Assembly (NCBI GenBank): GCA_020429235.1 | Contig: JAGQLQ010000010.1 | Location: forward strand, 1 to 56,036 | DNA from: Candidatus Peregrinibacteria bacterium | GTDB lineage: Bacteria > Patescibacteriota > Gracilibacteria > UBA1369 | Length of the DNA: 56,036 nt | Reading direction: 5' to 3' | Part shown: in pieces, positions 40,532 through 48,115 of the stretch | How positions within the stretch are numbered: the first letter of the stretch is position 1 | Layout of the letters: every line of letters starts with the position of its first letter | Notes under the pieces: model-generated | What the model saw: only the letters and a program-made list of their open reading frames with translations | Told to the model about the DNA's origin: nothing | Database searches by the model: none | Program-made: the position numbers and the translations under genes

Positions 40532-41128
40532 ATGAATTTTCCGGAACCGCACAATCAACGAGAAACGTTTACTCCAAACAATGCTTTGTGGACGAGTATT
40601 GGTCTTGTGGCTACAGCGTTCGGGCTTACGTTGATTTATTTTATGATGCGCGCTGTGATGGCTGTTGGGGGTTATTGTGCAGAGGGTGGCCCGTATGTTA
40701 TTGCGACGCCCTGCCCGGATAATGTTGCTATGCTGACACCCATCTCTATTTTCACCATGATTGTTGGGATTTTTATTTATATGGGGAATCGAGCCAAGAA
40801 TGGACCTGATTGGACTATGTTCTGGTGGTCTGCACTTTTTTTGAGTCTTGGATGGAATTTTGTTGAGTTTAGTATTTATCCCCCAGATGGGAGTGGGATT
40901 GCATGGGGATGGATTATTTGTGCGGTTCTTTTTGGCTTGATGGGATTTGCGCCACTCCTTTTGATTGGAAGTGGCGGTTTGCCTCATCCGCTTTTTGGGC
41001 GTGAAAAAGAGGGAATTAAAGCACCTGAGTCTGGCTTGGAATCGCGGAATTTTTTGCTGGTTCTTCACTTTGGATCTGTTCTTGTTGGCTTTTTCCTCGC
41101 TCAATTTTTACTTCAATCACTTTCTTAA
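40532..41128 (+). CDS. Four-helix membrane protein with Cys-rich extracellular loop (copy A)
   Basis: The 198-residue protein has about four membrane helices. After the first is the loop GGYCAEGGPYVIATPCP (about 45-61), whose two Cys could pair. Similar loops occur in uncharacterised membrane proteins of Actinobacteria. It is followed by a paralogue 16 nt downstream. Confidence 0.75.
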   Translation: MNFPEPHNQRETFTPNNALWTSIGLVATAFGLTLIYFMMRAVMAVGGYCAEGGPYVIATPCPDNVAMLTPISIFTMIVGIFIYMGNRAKNGPDWTMFWWSALFLSLGWNFVEFSIYPPDGSGIAWGWIICAVLFGLMGFAPLLLIGSGGLPHPLFGREKEGIKAPESGLESRNFLLVLHFGSVLVGFFLAQFLLQSLS

Positions 41129-41144
41129 TTTCTCATTTTTCCTC

Positions 41145-41720
41145 ATGGATGATACTCAGAAAAATTATCAATCGCGAAAGCTTGGCCGTGCTGTATTAAT
41201 GTTCCTTGGTTTGGCGAGCCTGTTTATGAGTTTGATTGTTTTGAATGAACTGTTTCGTGGGGTTATTGCTATTGGAGGTTATTGTGCTGAAGGTGGTGCG
41301 TATGAAATTGCTGTTCCGTGTCCCGATAATACTTTAATACTGGCGCCTATTGGCATTATTGGACTTATGCTTGGGATTCTTCTTTATCTTGTTTTTCGTT
41401 TACGAAAAGGTCCTAACTGGATTATGGCTCTTTGGCCGATAGCCTTTTTAGGATCTGCATGGACATTTTTGCAGGCAGGTCTGAATCCTCCACTCAATAG
41501 TGAATCTACCTGGCCGCTCTTTTTTATGGCGGCTATGTTTGGATTTTTTGGAGCAGCTCCGCTTTGGTTTATTCGTCGTGATCTTCCAAAAATTTTCAAA
41601 GATGAAACTGGGTATGAAGGTTTATGGGTTGAGTCTTATAACTTTTTGCAAATACTTCATTTTGTAGCTGCAGCTGTTGGTGTGGCTCTAGGTTTCTCTA
41701 TTATTCACCTTGTTTCTTAA
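41145..41720 (+). CDS. Four-helix membrane protein with Cys-rich extracellular loop (copy B)
   Basis: The 191-residue paralogue of the preceding gene keeps the loop as GGYCAEGGAYEIAVPCP and the same helix order. I chose the ATG at 41145, since the longer frame lies inside copy A. The tandem arose by duplication followed by strong divergence. Confidence 0.75.
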   Translation: MDDTQKNYQSRKLGRAVLMFLGLASLFMSLIVLNELFRGVIAIGGYCAEGGAYEIAVPCPDNTLILAPIGIIGLMLGILLYLVFRLRKGPNWIMALWPIAFLGSAWTFLQAGLNPPLNSESTWPLFFMAAMFGFFGAAPLWFIRRDLPKIFKDETGYEGLWVESYNFLQILHFVAAAVGVALGFSIIHLVS

Positions 41721-41729
41721 CTTTTCCCT

Positions 41730-42251
41730 ATGAAACGTTTTTCTTTTTTTCTCATTACTTCCCTTTTCCTTGCCGGATGTGGAAGTTCTCCATCAGAAAA
41801 TCCAAATGTTACTTCGAGCTCTACCCAACCGATGACAGAACAAAGTTCTGAAGCTCAAAACTCTCTTTGTGACATTGTTTCTCCACAGACTGTTGGGAAT
41901 ATTGTCCGAACAACACTTTCTGTTAATGTTATTAGTCCCGAAGATCAACCACCTCTTACCTGTCAGTATTCTGGTGGCGGGGTCCAGGTAACGATTATGG
42001 CTGAAAAAGGATCTGATGCGGCTGATACTCATGCTATGAATACTGAAAGTATTGTGGCTGAAAATCGTCTTACTACTTTTGATGAGGTTGGGGATGGTGG
42101 TTCCGGTTTTGTATTTAATGATATTGTAAATGGTGATGTTTATGAGGATGATGTTTGGGTTAATGTGAGTGTTGAGAGTTCTACCATGACAGAAGAAGAG
42201 AAAACTGATGCGGTTAAGGAGCTTATTGACATGGTGTTAGTGGCCTTGTAG
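41730..42251 (+). CDS. Small lipoprotein
   Basis: The 173-residue protein has a signal peptide ending in the lipobox LAGC (MKRFSFFLITSLFLAGC), a Ser/Thr/Pro-rich linker, and a soluble domain with two Cys (SLCDIVSP and LTCQYSG). The general plan resembles DUF3558-type lipoproteins, but this is unsure. The promoter of the next unit lies in its last 26 bases. Confidence 0.8.
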   Translation: MKRFSFFLITSLFLAGCGSSPSENPNVTSSSTQPMTEQSSEAQNSLCDIVSPQTVGNIVRTTLSVNVISPEDQPPLTCQYSGGGVQVTIMAEKGSDAADTHAMNTESIVAENRLTTFDEVGDGGSGFVFNDIVNGDVYEDDVWVNVSVESSTMTEEEKTDAVKELIDMVLVAL

Positions 42252-42254
42252 AAT
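42226..42254 (+). promoter_or_regulatory. Promoter of the methionine leader operon
   Basis: TTGACA (42226-42231) and TAGAAT (42249-42254) have a 17-bp spacer. The start is predicted at about 42261, directly at the leader ATG, so the transcript would be nearly leaderless. Confidence 0.8.
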
Positions 42255-42261
42255 CGGACCA

Positions 42262-42357
42262 ATGAAAACTTTTGCCCAACAAAACGGCTTGCAACAAACT
42301 TCATCAATGATGATGTCTATGATGATGCTTTCGCAGCGAAGGCCGGTTGTTTGGTAG
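42262..42357 (+). CDS. Methionine-rich leader peptide, 31 residues
   Basis: The peptide begins MKTFAQQNGLQQTSS, then has Met-Met-Met-Ser-Met-Met-Met at residues 16-22, and ends LSQRRPVVW before TAG at 42355. Six Met in seven codons is far beyond chance for a random ORF. It sits between a consensus promoter and a terminator hairpin, before a methionine-pathway gene. This is the sensor of a ribosome-mediated attenuator. Confidence 0.85.
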   Translation: MKTFAQQNGLQQTSSMMMSMMMLSQRRPVVW

Positions 42358-42408
42358 AAACTGATCATACAACTCCCAAAGCCTTCGCAAGTGCGAAGGC
42401 TTTTTTTT
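42327..42408 (+). promoter_or_regulatory. Attenuator with mutually exclusive hairpins
   Basis: Four segments are visible: 1, GCTTTCGC (42327-42334), directly after the Met codons; 2, GCGAAGGC (42336-42343); 3, GCCTTCGC (42381-42388); 4, GCGAAGGC (42393-42400). Segment 2 can pair with 1 or, as antiterminator, with 3, extended by GTTGT/ACAAC. Segments 3 and 4 form the terminator. A ribosome stalled at Met codons would cover 1 and free 2 for 3, allowing read-through. Confidence 0.8.
42381..42408 (+). terminator. Attenuator terminator
   Basis: Perfect 8-bp stem GCCTTCGC/GCGAAGGC, loop AAGT, then eight T. Confidence 0.92.
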
Positions 42409-42427
42409 AACATTTTAACTTTTTATC

Positions 42428-43378
42428 ATGACAGGGAATAATCTTGTTTTGGCCGTCAATGGTGGGTCCCAGGAGTGCAGTACTTTATTTGGGCCGTATG
42501 GAACACGGCTTGAGCAGATTGGAGCAGAGATTGGTAATCCGGAGATCGTGGCTCCAACGTCAGTACTGACAAGTCAGGAGGCTCGGGAGGCGGTTGCGAG
42601 AGTGGCTGGTGAGTATATTGATGCTGGCGCACGAGTCGCGACCATTAATGCTTTTGGGTTGCGAGGACTTTTGCATGAAGGTGAACGACGGTTGTATGAA
42701 GAGGCGATTCTTGGACAGCAAAATGCAATGCTCCAGGGAGTAAGGACTTATGCGCGGGACGCTGTCTTGAAGGCTTTGAGTTTGAGTGTGGGGCCGTATG
42801 GTGATTGTTATAAGCCGGAAGAGGCTCCTGATCGTGGTTTGGCGAAAGATTTTCATGAATTACAAGTACAGGGTTTTGAAAAGAGTGATGCTGATGTGCT
42901 CTGGTTTGAAACGATTGGGACGATTGAAGAGGCCGTGGGGATTGGACAGGCTGCCGCGCCTTATGTTCCGACGGTGATCAGCTTTATTATTGATAGGGAT
43001 GGACGTCTTTTGAGTGGAGAGTGTGTGCGTGATGCTATTAAGGCTGTTGATGATGCGAGTGGACGAACGGTGGTCGGTTACTCTTTTAACTGCTGTCCAA
43101 TTGAGGGACTGACTCATGCATTTGCTTCAACAGAGGATTTGGGAAGAGTGATTGCCTGCTATCCGAATGCTTCGTCGGCTGATCCACGAGAGTTATGTGG
43201 AAGTGATGGTGTGCAGAAAGTGGAGGATCCTAAAAGTGTCGGGCAGTATCTGCGCTTTTTAGCCAAGCGGTTTAATCTGTCGATTGTGGGTGGATGTTGT
43301 GGCCATGATCATGAGAGTGTAAGCCACATTTCGGCTATCCCCCAGAATGATTGTCATTTTGAGTGGCATTCTTTATGA
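42428..43378 (+). CDS. Homocysteine S-methyltransferase family protein
   Basis: The 316-residue zinc-dependent methyltransferase domain would make methionine from homocysteine. Zinc cysteines lie in GYSFNCCPIEG and the C-terminal IVGGCCGHDHESV. The N-terminus shows the barrel segments YIDAGARVATINAFGLRG. It is the size of the stand-alone domain, without cobalamin or folate domains, so the methyl donor is unknown (S-methylmethionine, methyl-folate or methylcobamide). A Met-leader attenuator controls its transcription. Confidence 0.88.
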   Translation: MTGNNLVLAVNGGSQECSTLFGPYGTRLEQIGAEIGNPEIVAPTSVLTSQEAREAVARVAGEYIDAGARVATINAFGLRGLLHEGERRLYEEAILGQQNAMLQGVRTYARDAVLKALSLSVGPYGDCYKPEEAPDRGLAKDFHELQVQGFEKSDADVLWFETIGTIEEAVGIGQAAAPYVPTVISFIIDRDGRLLSGECVRDAIKAVDDASGRTVVGYSFNCCPIEGLTHAFASTEDLGRVIACYPNASSADPRELCGSDGVQKVEDPKSVGQYLRFLAKRFNLSIVGGCCGHDHESVSHISAIPQNDCHFEWHSL

Positions 43379-43388
43379 TGCCACTGCT

Positions 43389-43718
43389 ATGGAATTTTCT
43401 TATGTGAAATTTGTGGTGTATGTTCCGATAACGCATGCTGACTCGGTGCGAGAAGCATTGGCTGTAAGTGGGGCCGGAAAGATGGGGATGTATGATTCGT
43501 GTTCGTTTAGTACGAAAGGGGTGGGGCGGTTTAAGCCGATGGATGGCGCGAAGCCGTTTGTAGGAGAGGTTGGAAAAGTGGAAGAGGTTGAGGAGGAGCG
43601 AATTGAAACAGTGTGTAGTCGGGAGGATTTAGCCCGAGTGATGGAAGCAGTGCTGGCTGCCCATCCATATGAAGAGCCGGCGATTGATGTGTATCCTTTA
43701 TTGAATTTGAATGGCTAG
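43389..43718 (+). CDS. NIF3 C-terminal-like (CutA-fold) protein
   Basis: The 109-residue protein has the pattern of the inserted/terminal domain of NIF3/YqfO: FVVYVPITHADSVREALA, GAGKMGMYDSCSFST, and AAHPYEEPAIDVYPL. It lacks the metal-binding NIF3 core. Function is unknown. The ATG at 43389 is 10 nt after the methyltransferase stop, and the gene overlaps mutS by 8 nt. Confidence 0.85.
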   Translation: MEFSYVKFVVYVPITHADSVREALAVSGAGKMGMYDSCSFSTKGVGRFKPMDGAKPFVGEVGKVEEVEEERIETVCSREDLARVMEAVLAAHPYEEPAIDVYPLLNLNG

Positions 43719-46266
43719 TGGCGCGAACAATGGGAAGATGACCCCGATGATGAAGCAGTATTTGGCTATTAAGGCTGAGCATGAAGGGTGTTTGTTGTTT
43801 TTCCGGTTGGGTGATTTTTATGAACTGTTTTTTAATGATGCTGAAGAAACAGCGAAGCTTTTGGGACTGACGTTGACCGGTCGGGGAAAGGGTGAAACGC
43901 GAGTGCCAATGTGTGGGGTTCCCCATCACGCGGCAGAGGGTTACATTGCGAAATTAACGAAGCTTGGGAAGAAGGTGGCGATTTGCGATCAGGTTTCTGA
44001 TCCGAGTGAACCGGGAATTGTTCAACGCGAGGTGACACGGATTGTGACACCGGGGACAACCCTTGATGAAAAAGTTTTGGATGCGAAAAAGAGTAATTAT
44101 GTGGCGTCGGTTATGAGAGTTGCTTCTGGCGATGAAACCGGCGGTTTTGCGCTGGCGTTTGCCGATGTGACAACTGGAGAGTTTGGAAAAGTTAATGCTG
44201 AGGATGAGAAGAGTTTGGCGGCTGAATTGCAGAGGCTGGGGCCAAGCGAGCTGGTGGTTCGTGCGGCGGATTTGGAGAGCAATTGGGTTGAGGGTTTGAA
44301 GCGGATGCGGGGCGCTTTTGTGTTTGGGCATGCGAGCGAGGCAGAGAAAGTGGAAGAGTTTTTGATGGACTATTTGAAAGAAACACAGAAGACGAACTTG
44401 GATCATATGGTTGTTGGTGATGCTGATGAGGTTGAGTTTATGGCTTTGGATGAAGCGACGTTGAAGAATTTGGAATTGATGGAAACGTTACGGGAAGGGA
44501 AAAAAGAGGGTTCGCTTTTGTGGGTGATTGATAAGACTGAGACAGCAATGGGTGGACGCTTGTTGCGATATTTTTTAATGCATCCTTTGTTGGATGCTGG
44601 GCAGGTGGCTCGGAGGCTGGACGCGGTTGAAGAGTTGGTTTCGGAGCGCGCGCTGGCGGAGGATTTGCGGAGCGTGCTGGGGTCTATTTTGGATATGGAG
44701 CGTTTGCTGGCGCGGCTTTCGATGAACCGGGGCAGCGCGCGCGACGTCGCAGCACTCAAACAGTCTCTCCAACAGATCCCGACTATTCAAACACTTTTGA
44801 GTGCATCGGCCGATGGGCAAGGCGTAAAAACCGAACTCCTTGCCGGTATTCGGGACGGGATCGATCCCCTTTCTGACATTGTTGCTTTGATTGAAAAAGC
44901 CATCGTCGAAGAACCGCCTCTTACTTTTAATGATGGTGGCGTGATTGCCGATGGCTACCACAACGAACTGGATGAACTGAAAAAAATCAGCCGCGAAGGA
45001 AAATCGTACATTCAAAAAATGCAGCAGGAAGAGATTGCACGAACCGGCATCAGCAACTTGAAAGTCCGCTACAACAAGGTGTTCGGCTACTATTTGGAGG
45101 TTTCAAAATCGCACGTGAGTAAAGTTCCGGAAACATGGATTCGCAAACAAACGTTGGTGAACGCTGAACGGTACATCACGCCGGAATTGAAGGAGTACGA
45201 AGAAAAGGTTTTGGGCGCGGAAGAGAAAATTGTGGCGTTGGAACAACAACTTTTTGCAGAAGTTCGGGCCAAGGTTGTGGCAGAAAAAGATCGGATTCAG
45301 AAAACTGCGAAGAAGCTGGCGCTTCTGGATGTGCTGCAAAGTTTTGCAGCGGCGGCGCTCACCAATCGCTACTGCAAGCCATCAATAAAAACAGAAGGAG
45401 ATCTAAACATTGTGAATGGTCGGCATCCGGTGGTGGAAGAGATGAGTTTTGCCGCGCGGTTTGTTCCAAATGACACCGCTCTCCTGAACTCAGGAGAGCG
45501 TGTACAGCTTATAACCGGTCCGAATATGGGCGGAAAGTCGACATACCTTCGTCAGGTCGCTCTCATTGTTTTAATGGCGCAAATCGGCTGTTTTGTTCCC
45601 GCAGAGGCTGCCGAGATTGGCATGGTGGATCGGATTTTCACGCGTGTTGGCGCGTCGGATAATCTGGTGCGTGGCCAAAGTACGTTCATGGTGGAAATGC
45701 AGGAAACCGCAGACATTCTTGCTTCGGCAACTGAGAAAAGTTTAGTGATTCTAGATGAGATTGGTCGTGGAACTTCGACCTATGATGGAATGAGTATCGC
45801 CTGGTCGATTTTGGAATATTTACACGATTCAATAGGTGCGAAAACTCTGTTTGCGACGCACTATCATGAACTGATTGCTCTGGCTGACAAGCTTGAACAT
45901 GCGGTGAACTACTCAGTTGCCGTGAAGGAAAATGCGGAAGAGGGTGTAGTGTTTTTGTATAAAGTTTTGAAGGGTGGTGTGGATAAAAGTTATGGAATCG
46001 AAGTGGCAAAACTGGCTGGTTTGCCAACAGATGTGATCGCCCGGGCCGGGCAAATTTTGCAAGACCTTGAAGAAGGATCGCATGAACAAGCGGTGCAGAA
46101 AGAACTGGCCTCCAGGCCCGCACAAACACAGTCGATGCTGTTTCAAGATGATCGCGAACGCGATCATAATCCTCTTCAAAAACAGATTGATGCGATCGAC
46201 ACTGACAATATGACGCCGATGGAAGCGCTTAAAAAACTTCATGAATTGAAACATGCCAACGATTAA
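43711..46266 (+). CDS. mutS: DNA mismatch recognition protein MutS
   Basis: MutS binds mismatches and recruits MutL. The 851-residue protein is full length. The mismatch-wedge Phe-x-Glu is in GDFYELF near residue 37, and later come the clamp and core domains. The ATPase has Walker A GPNMGGKST (about 603) and Walker B LVILDEIGRGTST (about 676). It overlaps the preceding gene by 8 nt and mutL by 14 nt. Codon choice shifts toward C-ending codons from about 44,730 onward. Confidence 0.97.
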   Translation: MASGANNGKMTPMMKQYLAIKAEHEGCLLFFRLGDFYELFFNDAEETAKLLGLTLTGRGKGETRVPMCGVPHHAAEGYIAKLTKLGKKVAICDQVSDPSEPGIVQREVTRIVTPGTTLDEKVLDAKKSNYVASVMRVASGDETGGFALAFADVTTGEFGKVNAEDEKSLAAELQRLGPSELVVRAADLESNWVEGLKRMRGAFVFGHASEAEKVEEFLMDYLKETQKTNLDHMVVGDADEVEFMALDEATLKNLELMETLREGKKEGSLLWVIDKTETAMGGRLLRYFLMHPLLDAGQVARRLDAVEELVSERALAEDLRSVLGSILDMERLLARLSMNRGSARDVAALKQSLQQIPTIQTLLSASADGQGVKTELLAGIRDGIDPLSDIVALIEKAIVEEPPLTFNDGGVIADGYHNELDELKKISREGKSYIQKMQQEEIARTGISNLKVRYNKVFGYYLEVSKSHVSKVPETWIRKQTLVNAERYITPELKEYEEKVLGAEEKIVALEQQLFAEVRAKVVAEKDRIQKTAKKLALLDVLQSFAAAALTNRYCKPSIKTEGDLNIVNGRHPVVEEMSFAARFVPNDTALLNSGERVQLITGPNMGGKSTYLRQVALIVLMAQIGCFVPAEAAEIGMVDRIFTRVGASDNLVRGQSTFMVEMQETADILASATEKSLVILDEIGRGTSTYDGMSIAWSILEYLHDSIGAKTLFATHYHELIALADKLEHAVNYSVAVKENAEEGVVFLYKVLKGGVDKSYGIEVAKLAGLPTDVIARAGQILQDLEEGSHEQAVQKELASRPAQTQSMLFQDDRERDHNPLQKQIDAIDTDNMTPMEALKKLHELKHAND

Positions 46267-48115
46267 AGTTCTACCGGAAAATTTGATTAACCAGATTGCG
46301 GCGGGTGAAGTGGTGGAACGTCCGGCGTCTGTGGTGAAGGAGTTGGTGGAGAACTCCTTGGATGCTGGTGCGCAGCGGATTATTGTGGAAGCTCATGGTG
46401 GGGGTGACACGTTTTTGCGGGTGACTGATGATGGGAATGGCATGGATAAAGATGACGCGCTTCTCTGTTTTGAACGGCATGCTACCAGTAAGATTTCGAC
46501 AGCGGATGATTTGGTGAATATTCATACGTTGGGGTTTCGAGGTGAAGCCATTGCGAGTATTGCATCGGTATCGAATATGATCGTACAAACAAAGAAAAAG
46601 GGGGCGATGGAGGGTTCACTGATTGTGAGTGAAGGCGGGCGTATGGCGAAAATTAAAGAGTTGGGATGTCCGGAAGGAACTCAAATTGAGGTGCGGGATC
46701 TGTTTTTTAATACTCCTGTACGGAAAAAGTATCTTAAGAGTGACGCTGCTGAGTATCGGGCGATTGTTGATCTTTTAACCGGTATCGCTTTGGCCAATCC
46801 AAGTGTGGCGATGAAGCTGGTGCATGATGACAAGATTGTCTTTGATCTGGCTGCTACGGAAAATGTGCAGGTTCGAATTCGGGATTTGATGGGGCGCCAG
46901 GTGGCGGACAATCTGATTCCTGTTTTTAATGGTCATGCTCAAATGCGACTGGAGGGATTTATTGGAAAGCCGGACATTGCACGAGCAAACAGGAAGGCTC
47001 AACATCTGTTTGTGAATGGCCGGGAGGTCCAATCCTATGTGCTTTCTTATGCGGTAAAGCAGGCATTCCATTCGTTATTACCCAATAATAGACATCCGGT
47101 TTTTGTGTTGTTTTTGGATGTGGATCCAAAGTTAGTGGACGTGAATGTTCATCCACGAAAACTGGAAGTACGGTTTAGTGATGAGAAATCTATTTTTAGA
47201 ATTTTTGTACAGGCGACCAAGCACGCGTTGGAGAAACATGTATTGGCTCCGGATTTCAATGTACCGGCTGAAGAGATTCCTGAAGATTTTTCTACACTTT
47301 CGCAGCCGCGAGAACGTGACCATCAAACTTTGAAATCAGTGGATGTGACGCCGCCAGTGTATGAGCCTGCCGATTATAAACCGGTGAAACAGGAAGCATT
47401 GGTGTTGAAAGATGCTCCGGAAGAGGTATTGCAAGAATCTTTACCTCAACAGGAGAATGAGGAATCTGAACCGGAAGCAACTCTTCGGGATGAAGCCATT
47501 GAACTCATACCACTCGCGCAGATGAATCGATCGTATATTGTGTGTCAGCAGCTGAGTAAGAGTCCTGGAGAAGGAGCGCATGCCAACATGGATCTGGTGG
47601 TTCTGGATCAGCATGCCGCGCATGAACGAATTCTTTACACAGAACTTTTGGACCAGTTTGAAAAGAAAGAGATTTCAACGCAGCCACTTTTAATGCCGGT
47701 TCAGTTAGAGTTATCTCTTTCGGATAAGTCGATTCTGGAAGAGAATCTGGAGCTTTTGAAAGGGCTTGGATTTGAGATTGAACCGTTTGGGGGAAATACT
47801 TTTTCTGTTTATGGTGTTCCAAGTAGCATGGTGAAGGAGGATCCATCCTCTTTGATTCAGGGAATTTTGGATGACTTGAATAATCAATCTCTGAAAGGAG
47901 ATTTTCAGGCACGGAAAGAGAAGGCTCTTACTTATGCGGCGTGTAGAAGTGCTGTAAAGTTTGGTGATCCTTTAGAAATGGCGGAGATGGAAGCGTTGTG
48001 CGAAAAGTTGATGACCCTGGATTTGCCTTATACCTGCCCTCATGGTCGACCAACAATGGTCCGGCTTTCTGCGGCTGAGTTGGAAAAACGTTTTGGGCGT
48101 GACTACAAAAATTAG
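46253..48115 (+). CDS. mutL: DNA mismatch repair protein MutL, endonuclease type
   Basis: The 620-residue protein has the GHKL ATPase N-terminus (VVKELVENSLDAGA, DDGNGMD, LGFRGEAIASI) and a C-terminal endonuclease domain with LDQHAAHERI (about 450), ACRSAVKFG and CPHGRPTMVR near 595. Non-methyl-directed bacteria use this nicking form. The second Glu of the DQHA(X)2E(X)4E motif appears one residue late (RILYTE). Confidence 0.96.
   Translation: MPTIKVLPENLINQIAAGEVVERPASVVKELVENSLDAGAQRIIVEAHGGGDTFLRVTDDGNGMDKDDALLCFERHATSKISTADDLVNIHTLGFRGEAIASIASVSNMIVQTKKKGAMEGSLIVSEGGRMAKIKELGCPEGTQIEVRDLFFNTPVRKKYLKSDAAEYRAIVDLLTGIALANPSVAMKLVHDDKIVFDLAATENVQVRIRDLMGRQVADNLIPVFNGHAQMRLEGFIGKPDIARANRKAQHLFVNGREVQSYVLSYAVKQAFHSLLPNNRHPVFVLFLDVDPKLVDVNVHPRKLEVRFSDEKSIFRIFVQATKHALEKHVLAPDFNVPAEEIPEDFSTLSQPRERDHQTLKSVDVTPPVYEPADYKPVKQEALVLKDAPEEVLQESLPQQENEESEPEATLRDEAIELIPLAQMNRSYIVCQQLSKSPGEGAHANMDLVVLDQHAAHERILYTELLDQFEKKEISTQPLLMPVQLELSLSDKSILEENLELLKGLGFEIEPFGGNTFSVYGVPSSMVKEDPSSLIQGILDDLNNQSLKGDFQARKEKALTYAACRSAVKFGDPLEMAEMEALCEKLMTLDLPYTCPHGRPTMVRLSAAELEKRFGRDYKN

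Follow-up and report, generated by a model that had tools for sequence, protein, structure and literature searches.

Leader-peptide attenuation is established for the trp, his, leu, ilv, thr and phe operons; classical attenuators thus described sense a handful of amino acids and occur chiefly in Proteobacteria. Control of methionine genes elsewhere lies with MetJ, SAM riboswitches or Met T-boxes. The latter two serve the same pathway as the element described here and have the same terminator/antiterminator output, but in these systems the RNA senses SAM or uncharged tRNA directly, and no such aptamer was detected here. The nearest proposal for methionine is metL of Streptomyces lividans, which lies before metNIQ and has two isolated internal Met codons, and for which the authors reported no clear or typical terminator (PMC8079986). 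It shares with our element an apparently leaderless leader, Met codons and a methionine-linked gene downstream, whereas here the Met codons form dense runs, and both an intrinsic terminator and an antiterminator that co-varies accompany them. For the methionine operons of actinobacteria, Seliverstov 2005 found that no RNA element was conserved upstream (PMC1262725). A cysteine analogue, the uORFC-8-2 motif before cysS in Rhodobacterales, likewise has codons for a sulfur amino acid that are proposed to control transcriptional read-through, but concerns cysteine, a tRNA synthetase gene and Alphaproteobacteria (PMC8632094). A reading of the present locus made from the DNA alone (hereafter the sequence-only reading) had called a Met-run attenuator undescribed. 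We found none in the open-access literature (PubMed Central), where only the earlier metL proposal, which lacked a clear terminator, came up, so that any claim of priority is tentative. Our conclusion is that this is very probably ribosome-mediated attenuation of a known type, in which the methionine specificity and the bacterial group appear to be new.

The window, meaning the whole stretch of DNA analysed, comprised 56,036 nucleotides of a Candidatus Peregrinibacteria bacterium (contig JAGQLQ010000010.1) with a source genome of 1.23 Mb that was 96% complete. It contained an element that is very probably a ribosome-mediated transcription attenuator sensing methionyl-tRNA charging, located directly upstream of a homocysteine S-methyltransferase (HMT) gene and made up of the following parts:

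42226 to 42254, forward strand: sigma-70-type promoter TTGACA-N17-TAGAAT, 11 of 12 consensus positions matched (-35 TTGACA at 42226-42231, spacer of 17 nt, -10 TAGAAT at 42249-42254)
42262 to 42357, forward strand: leader peptide ORF of 31 codons, MKTFAQQNGLQQTSSMMMSMMMLSQRRPVVW*, read from the sequence; the sister species and distant relatives also have an ORF with a Met run
42307 to 42327, forward strand: putative regulatory Met codons ATGATGATG-TCT-ATGATGATG (MMMSMMM), matched by in-frame runs in relatives
42327 to 42333, forward strand: segment 1, GCTTTCG, pairing with CGAAGGC at 42337-42343; apparently not kept as a hairpin in relatives
42336 to 42352, forward strand: segment 2 (core GCGAAGGC at 42336-42343), putative 5' arm of the antiterminator, within the leader ORF; from its duplex with segment 3 and partner swaps
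42370 to 42388, forward strand: segment 3 region (core GCCTTCGC at 42381-42388), putative 3' arm of the antiterminator, doubling as 5' arm of the terminator; from the duplex and partner swaps
42393 to 42400, forward strand: segment 4, GCGAAGGC, 3' arm of the terminator
42378 to 42408, forward strand: intrinsic terminator from a terminator scan, with an 11-bp stem (42378-42388/42393-42403), loop AAGT and T8 at 42401-42408
42428 to 43378, forward strand: HMT gene, PF02574, 316 aa (Pfam E=7e-34)

The promoter, the 31-codon ORF with MMMSMMM, segments 1 to 4, the T8 terminator and the downstream HMT gene had all been named in the sequence-only reading and were confirmed base for base. As segments 2 and 4 are identical and each is complementary to segment 3, the 2:3 and 3:4 pairings are mutually exclusive. 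The leader fold was better than that of 200 out of 200 shuffles (z = -4.1), and the pattern of a Met run plus poly-T occurred once in the 1.2 Mb genome of the window, the reversed pattern not at all. In the sister species the whole element was kept although the adjoining upstream ORF had diverged, and it was also present in more distant genomes. Further upstream in the window, two overlapping ORFs at 40532-41720 encode similar proteins with hydrophobic stretches and form a tandem paralogue pair, both containing GGYCAEGG.Y.IA.PCPDN and neither matching Pfam.

On sequence grounds, the element appears to fit a leader-peptide attenuator on every feature tested except the 1:2 hairpin. It resembles the trp, his, leu, phe, thr and ilv attenuators in having a short ORF in which the regulated codon is repeated in a run, a T tract and a biosynthetic gene downstream, and in an antiterminator and terminator that share one segment. 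It differs from them in that methionine is the amino acid predicted to be sensed, in its Peregrinibacteria-type hosts and mostly leaderless-looking transcripts, and in apparently lacking a conserved 1:2 protector hairpin, with segment 2 inside the leader ORF at most loci. We propose that transcription would start at or within about one base of the leader AUG, with a ribosome following the RNA polymerase. When Met-tRNA is plentiful, the ribosome would pass MMMSMMM and reach the stop codon about 12 nt past the segment 2 core; by masking segment 2 there, it would let segments 3 and 4 pair, and RNA polymerase would stop at T8 before HMT. When Met-tRNA is short, the ribosome would stall while still at the Met codons, short of segment 2, so that segments 2 and 3 could form a long antiterminator ahead of the synthesis of segment 4; HMT, whose product would make methionine from homocysteine, would then be transcribed. 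Stalling at these codons would thereby couple read-through to Met-tRNA in a codon-dependent manner.

We evaluated the conservation of this arrangement in 89 genomes of the order, 15 of which had a PF02574-type match. The 11 best PF02574 matches (161-719 bits with a cut at 160; 34-100% protein identity) were taken as close orthologues, and those other than the window protein were 34-96% identical to the window HMT. The zinc-binding cysteine motifs NCCP and GGCCG were invariant or nearly so across the 11 aligned orthologues, and the window HMT matched the solved structure 5dml, a homocysteine S-methyltransferase (E=3e-5). All 11 genes were preceded by an in-frame Met-run leader ORF and then an intrinsic terminator, bearing out the expectation of the sequence-only reading that Met codons would recur in frame in relatives. 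Examples of the leader peptides in the order are MNTSAINNPGQVQISPNNIMAMMMRSFDVRRG*, MIFLKNMMMAMMMRIRRRSMRSS*, MYQSTQMMMAMMMRTMRRLMCCM* and MNKFQPQLGGLMQMQMMRSMRRLMCSM* (asterisks marking stop codons). Methionine was the sole residue conserved throughout; variable residues around the Met run, with the Met codons and the RNA pairing kept, are as expected for codon sensing. Two more distant HMT genes from other families of the class (L049 and L052) also had a Met-run leader; at L049 a terminator accompanies the Met run, and no antiterminator could be found. The more distant PF02574 matches L013, L015, L016, L050, L053 and L055 had no leader directly upstream, and a further PF02574 gene (L014/L054) was the second gene behind leader L082.

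Evidence that segments 2 and 3 would pair came from a partner-swap test, in which in silico hybridisation was run between the part of each leader that extends from the Met run to the stop codon and the segment 3 region of the same locus or of every other locus. Cognate duplexes averaged -20.3 kcal/mol against -15.0 kcal/mol for swapped ones, and none of 100000 permutations was as good. The 5' half of the same leaders, used as a negative control, gave a flat result (14511 of 20000 permutations as good), and an independent replicate with 23 non-HMT loci again yielded no permutation as good (0/50000). These permutation tests treat loci as independent, and the cognate advantage persisted in a set cut to 11 diverse loci, where no random pairing was as good, a cut that reduces relatedness and does not remove it. 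The second set and the negative control nevertheless argue that relatedness is probably not the whole explanation of the 2:3 signal. Co-variation had been put forward as the check that could separate an antiterminator from a terminator on its own; the partner swaps support the 2:3 antiterminator and not the terminator alone and, with the conserved Met runs, they sustain the earlier view of the element as a methionine attenuator.

The effect of ribosome position was computed by masking the RNA through 12 nt past the first Met of the run, or past the stop codon, and folding the remainder; the values therefore come from a thermodynamic model with an assumed ribosome footprint. The modelled set consisted of 37 loci of the class plus L090, with L101 and both L104 copies excluded. 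With the ribosome at the first Met, the median predicted probability of the terminator was 0.03, and with the ribosome at the stop codon it was 0.99; the window locus gave the same two values (0.03 and 0.99). Between these states the probability changed by more than 0.5 at 24 of 38 loci. Loci that did not switch in the model included L006, L049, L083, L090, L105, L107 and L108, and at several non-switching loci the antiterminator could still form first during transcription. A stall at the last Met freed less of segment 2 and mostly favoured the terminator at equilibrium, with the antiterminator still predicted before segment 4 is made.

The part of the sequence-only reading that fared less well was segment 1. 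Its 7-bp hairpin with segment 2 is present in the window, but it does not appear to be conserved across loci: at 35 loci, the region after the Met run was not more structured than shuffles (Stouffer z -1.6). At three related metA loci (L095, L097 and L098), the 1:2 hairpin overlaps the stop codon. These three have short leaders ending MMQLS(N) or MMMQLS, with segment 1 directly after the Met codons and segment 2 beginning at the stop codon, and are the most classical four-segment form that we observed. We conclude that the protector hairpin is probably optional. The common route to termination would instead be that a ribosome completing the leader masks segment 2, which should be enough to explain termination.

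In the window, 7 nt separate TAGAAT from the leader ATG, which places the predicted transcription start at about 42261-42262, at the leader start codon, and would make the transcript leaderless. Similar promoters were found at most leaders: 26 of the 31 with an assignable start, the start codons of several having been assigned by eye, had, within 60 nt, a promoter matching at least 9 of 12 positions. The spacing between the -10 hexamer and the start codon peaked sharply at 7 nt, so transcription should usually begin at the start codon or about one base before it, and the leader mRNAs mostly look leaderless. Leaderless leader peptides have been mapped by RNA-seq in Streptomyces (PMC8079986); judging by the computed promoter position, the leaders here resemble them. 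At L007 and L009, a tRNA gene lies just upstream of the leader, and the stretch separating the two carries a partial copy of the tRNA 3' end. These leaders lack a good promoter and may therefore be read from the tRNA promoter.

To extend the search beyond HMT, two Met-run DNA patterns, blind to downstream function, were scanned over the order and 353 genomes of the class. As ATG-repeat patterns also match Asp-rich coding sequence (GAT repeats), only matches followed by a stop, a spacer and a terminator were retained. In the reversed-pattern control there were 4 matches, against 46 listed for the forward patterns, about half of these 46 being real leaders. In all, 37 leaders were found in 13 families of the class, preceding HMT, metA, SAM hydrolase (PF01887) and some unassigned genes, and a terminator followed the leader in all relatives listed. 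SAM_HAT_N (PF01887) genes lay behind the leader at L027 and at its 55%-identical homologue L057, and metA (PF04204, E to 3e-130) at L069, L071 and L074, whereas leader L082 headed a methyltransferase-HMT operon. The recognisable targets, which were not picked for function, were methionine genes: those for making methionine from homocysteine, for the first committed step of synthesis, and of the SAM-hydrolase family. A direct search for metA in 232 genomes of the class returned 16 genes above the cut-off, of which 14 were behind a Met leader (13 directly, and one as the second gene of a leader-HMT-metA operon); the other two, L099 and L106, had no Met leader. At L104, one metA is preceded, about 330 nt upstream, by a tandem pair of complete Met-run attenuators that have a terminator each.

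Unassigned proteins were encoded behind the leaders L032, L076, L078, L083, L089, L075, L077 and L079-L081. Because several such genes carry the same switch, it could serve as a marker for methionine genes among unnamed proteins. Five of them (L032, L076, L078, L083 and L089) form a divergent family of 325-367 aa, and in some a VDxFGNI-like motif recalls SAM_HAT C-terminal domains. A relationship to SAM_HAT was considered and was not confirmed by profile comparison; the hints were a sub-threshold SAM_HAT_C match (E=0.21) and a non-significant best PDB match, 2zbu (E=0.49). At L077, L079, L080 and L081, attenuators lie before either a Pro-rich protein or a small ORF (about 70 aa). The genes downstream of these four and of L075 have no known methionine link, which counts against the methionine-sensing reading. 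In the L075 leader, MNPTAHTHMAMMMMMSMPRPPR*, what follows the Met run complements the terminator's 3' half and not its 5' half, a possible sign of a different switch geometry. Outside the class, the Met-run pattern was nearly absent from a 362-genome sample of the phylum. Matches at L092 and L093 look like noise. L090 (genome G389), also outside the class, has the leader MIRTSAAVRLMMSMMMDMVWHGRR*, an apparent 9-bp antiterminator, a terminator and a metA-like gene downstream on a contig of 56% GC. It looks like a real attenuator, possibly on a contaminant contig or horizontally acquired; contamination is suggested because its two relatives lack that metA-like gene.

Other explanations would retain some of these parts and assign them different roles. 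A Met-rich nascent peptide might respond to free methionine or SAM by arresting the ribosome, as in TnaC or MifM; the Met runs are conserved, and arrest would feed the same RNA switch. Arrest peptides, however, have fixed residues, and here Met alone is kept while the other residues, the run spacing and the residues before the stop vary widely, with runs such as MMMSMMM, MAMMM, MQMQMM, MMDMMMPMM and MMMQLS*. Methionine genes that are on when the ribosome is stalled also fit starvation and not arrest by excess methionine, and with only Met conserved we consider an arrest peptide very unlikely. The AUG repeats could instead serve as several start sites on leaderless-looking mRNAs, so that re-initiation would sense initiator tRNA or ribosome availability. 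Against this, most runs lie 6-17 codons inside an ORF that has its own start codon beside the -10 element, and runs broken by other codons (MQMQMM) suit sensing during elongation; we consider re-initiation extremely unlikely.

A metabolite riboswitch for SAM, SAH or methionine, or a Met T-box, with an incidental ORF, would accord with the control of methionine genes by such RNAs in other bacteria. Yet covariance models for SAM riboswitches and T-boxes gave no gathering-level Rfam match in the window or the related loci, where only tRNAs reached that score. The nearest sub-threshold cis-regulatory models were Phe_leader (RF01859, 25.9 bits) and Leu_leader (RF00512, 25.0 bits). The missing match and the resemblance to Phe and Leu attenuators speak against a riboswitch, as do the kept in-frame Met run and the near absence of RNA outside the ORF and switch helices, and we see next to no chance that this reading is correct. 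Intrinsic terminators between genes are common, and a constitutive terminator behind a chance Met-rich ORF would need no regulation at all; in-frame Met runs in 13 families, the 2:3 co-variation, the association with metA, HMT and SAM_HAT, and the scarcity of reversed-pattern matches (4 against the 46 listed, about half of them real leaders) bring the probability of this close to negligible.

Ribosome-mediated attenuation in response to Met-tRNA charging is therefore the reading that we prefer, and it is likely that a methionine leader-peptide regulon spans the class holding Candidatus Peregrinibacteria, in which AUG-run ORFs, mostly leaderless, would govern genes of the HMT, metA and SAM-hydrolase types; one metA has two such elements in tandem, and in the family of the window the switch would also head an operon including mutS and mutL. 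If true, this would give methionine its first well-supported ribosome attenuator and place a regulon of attenuators within a branch of the candidate phyla radiation. A Met-codon attenuator would fill a gap in the list of sensed amino acids, with the methionine codon acting as both start and sensor, as methionine begins every protein. It would also provide a concrete, testable mechanism of nutrient regulation for mostly uncultured bacteria and imply coupled transcription and translation there.

The genes following HMT in the window were arranged as follows:

43347 or 43377 to 43718: NIF3/CutA-like ORF, downstream of HMT
43711 to 46266: mutS, overlapping its neighbours
46253 to 48115: mutL, overlapping mutS

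From 42428 to 48115, HMT, the NIF3/CutA-like ORF, mutS and mutL thus form a chain of end-to-start overlaps, through which the attenuator may act on the mismatch repair genes as well. The order HMT-NIF3-like-mutS was kept in the sister species and in L003, from another genus of the same family, and was absent from the remaining orthologue loci that were examined. The downstream genes could be uncoupled from HMT by a promoter-like site at 43351-43379.
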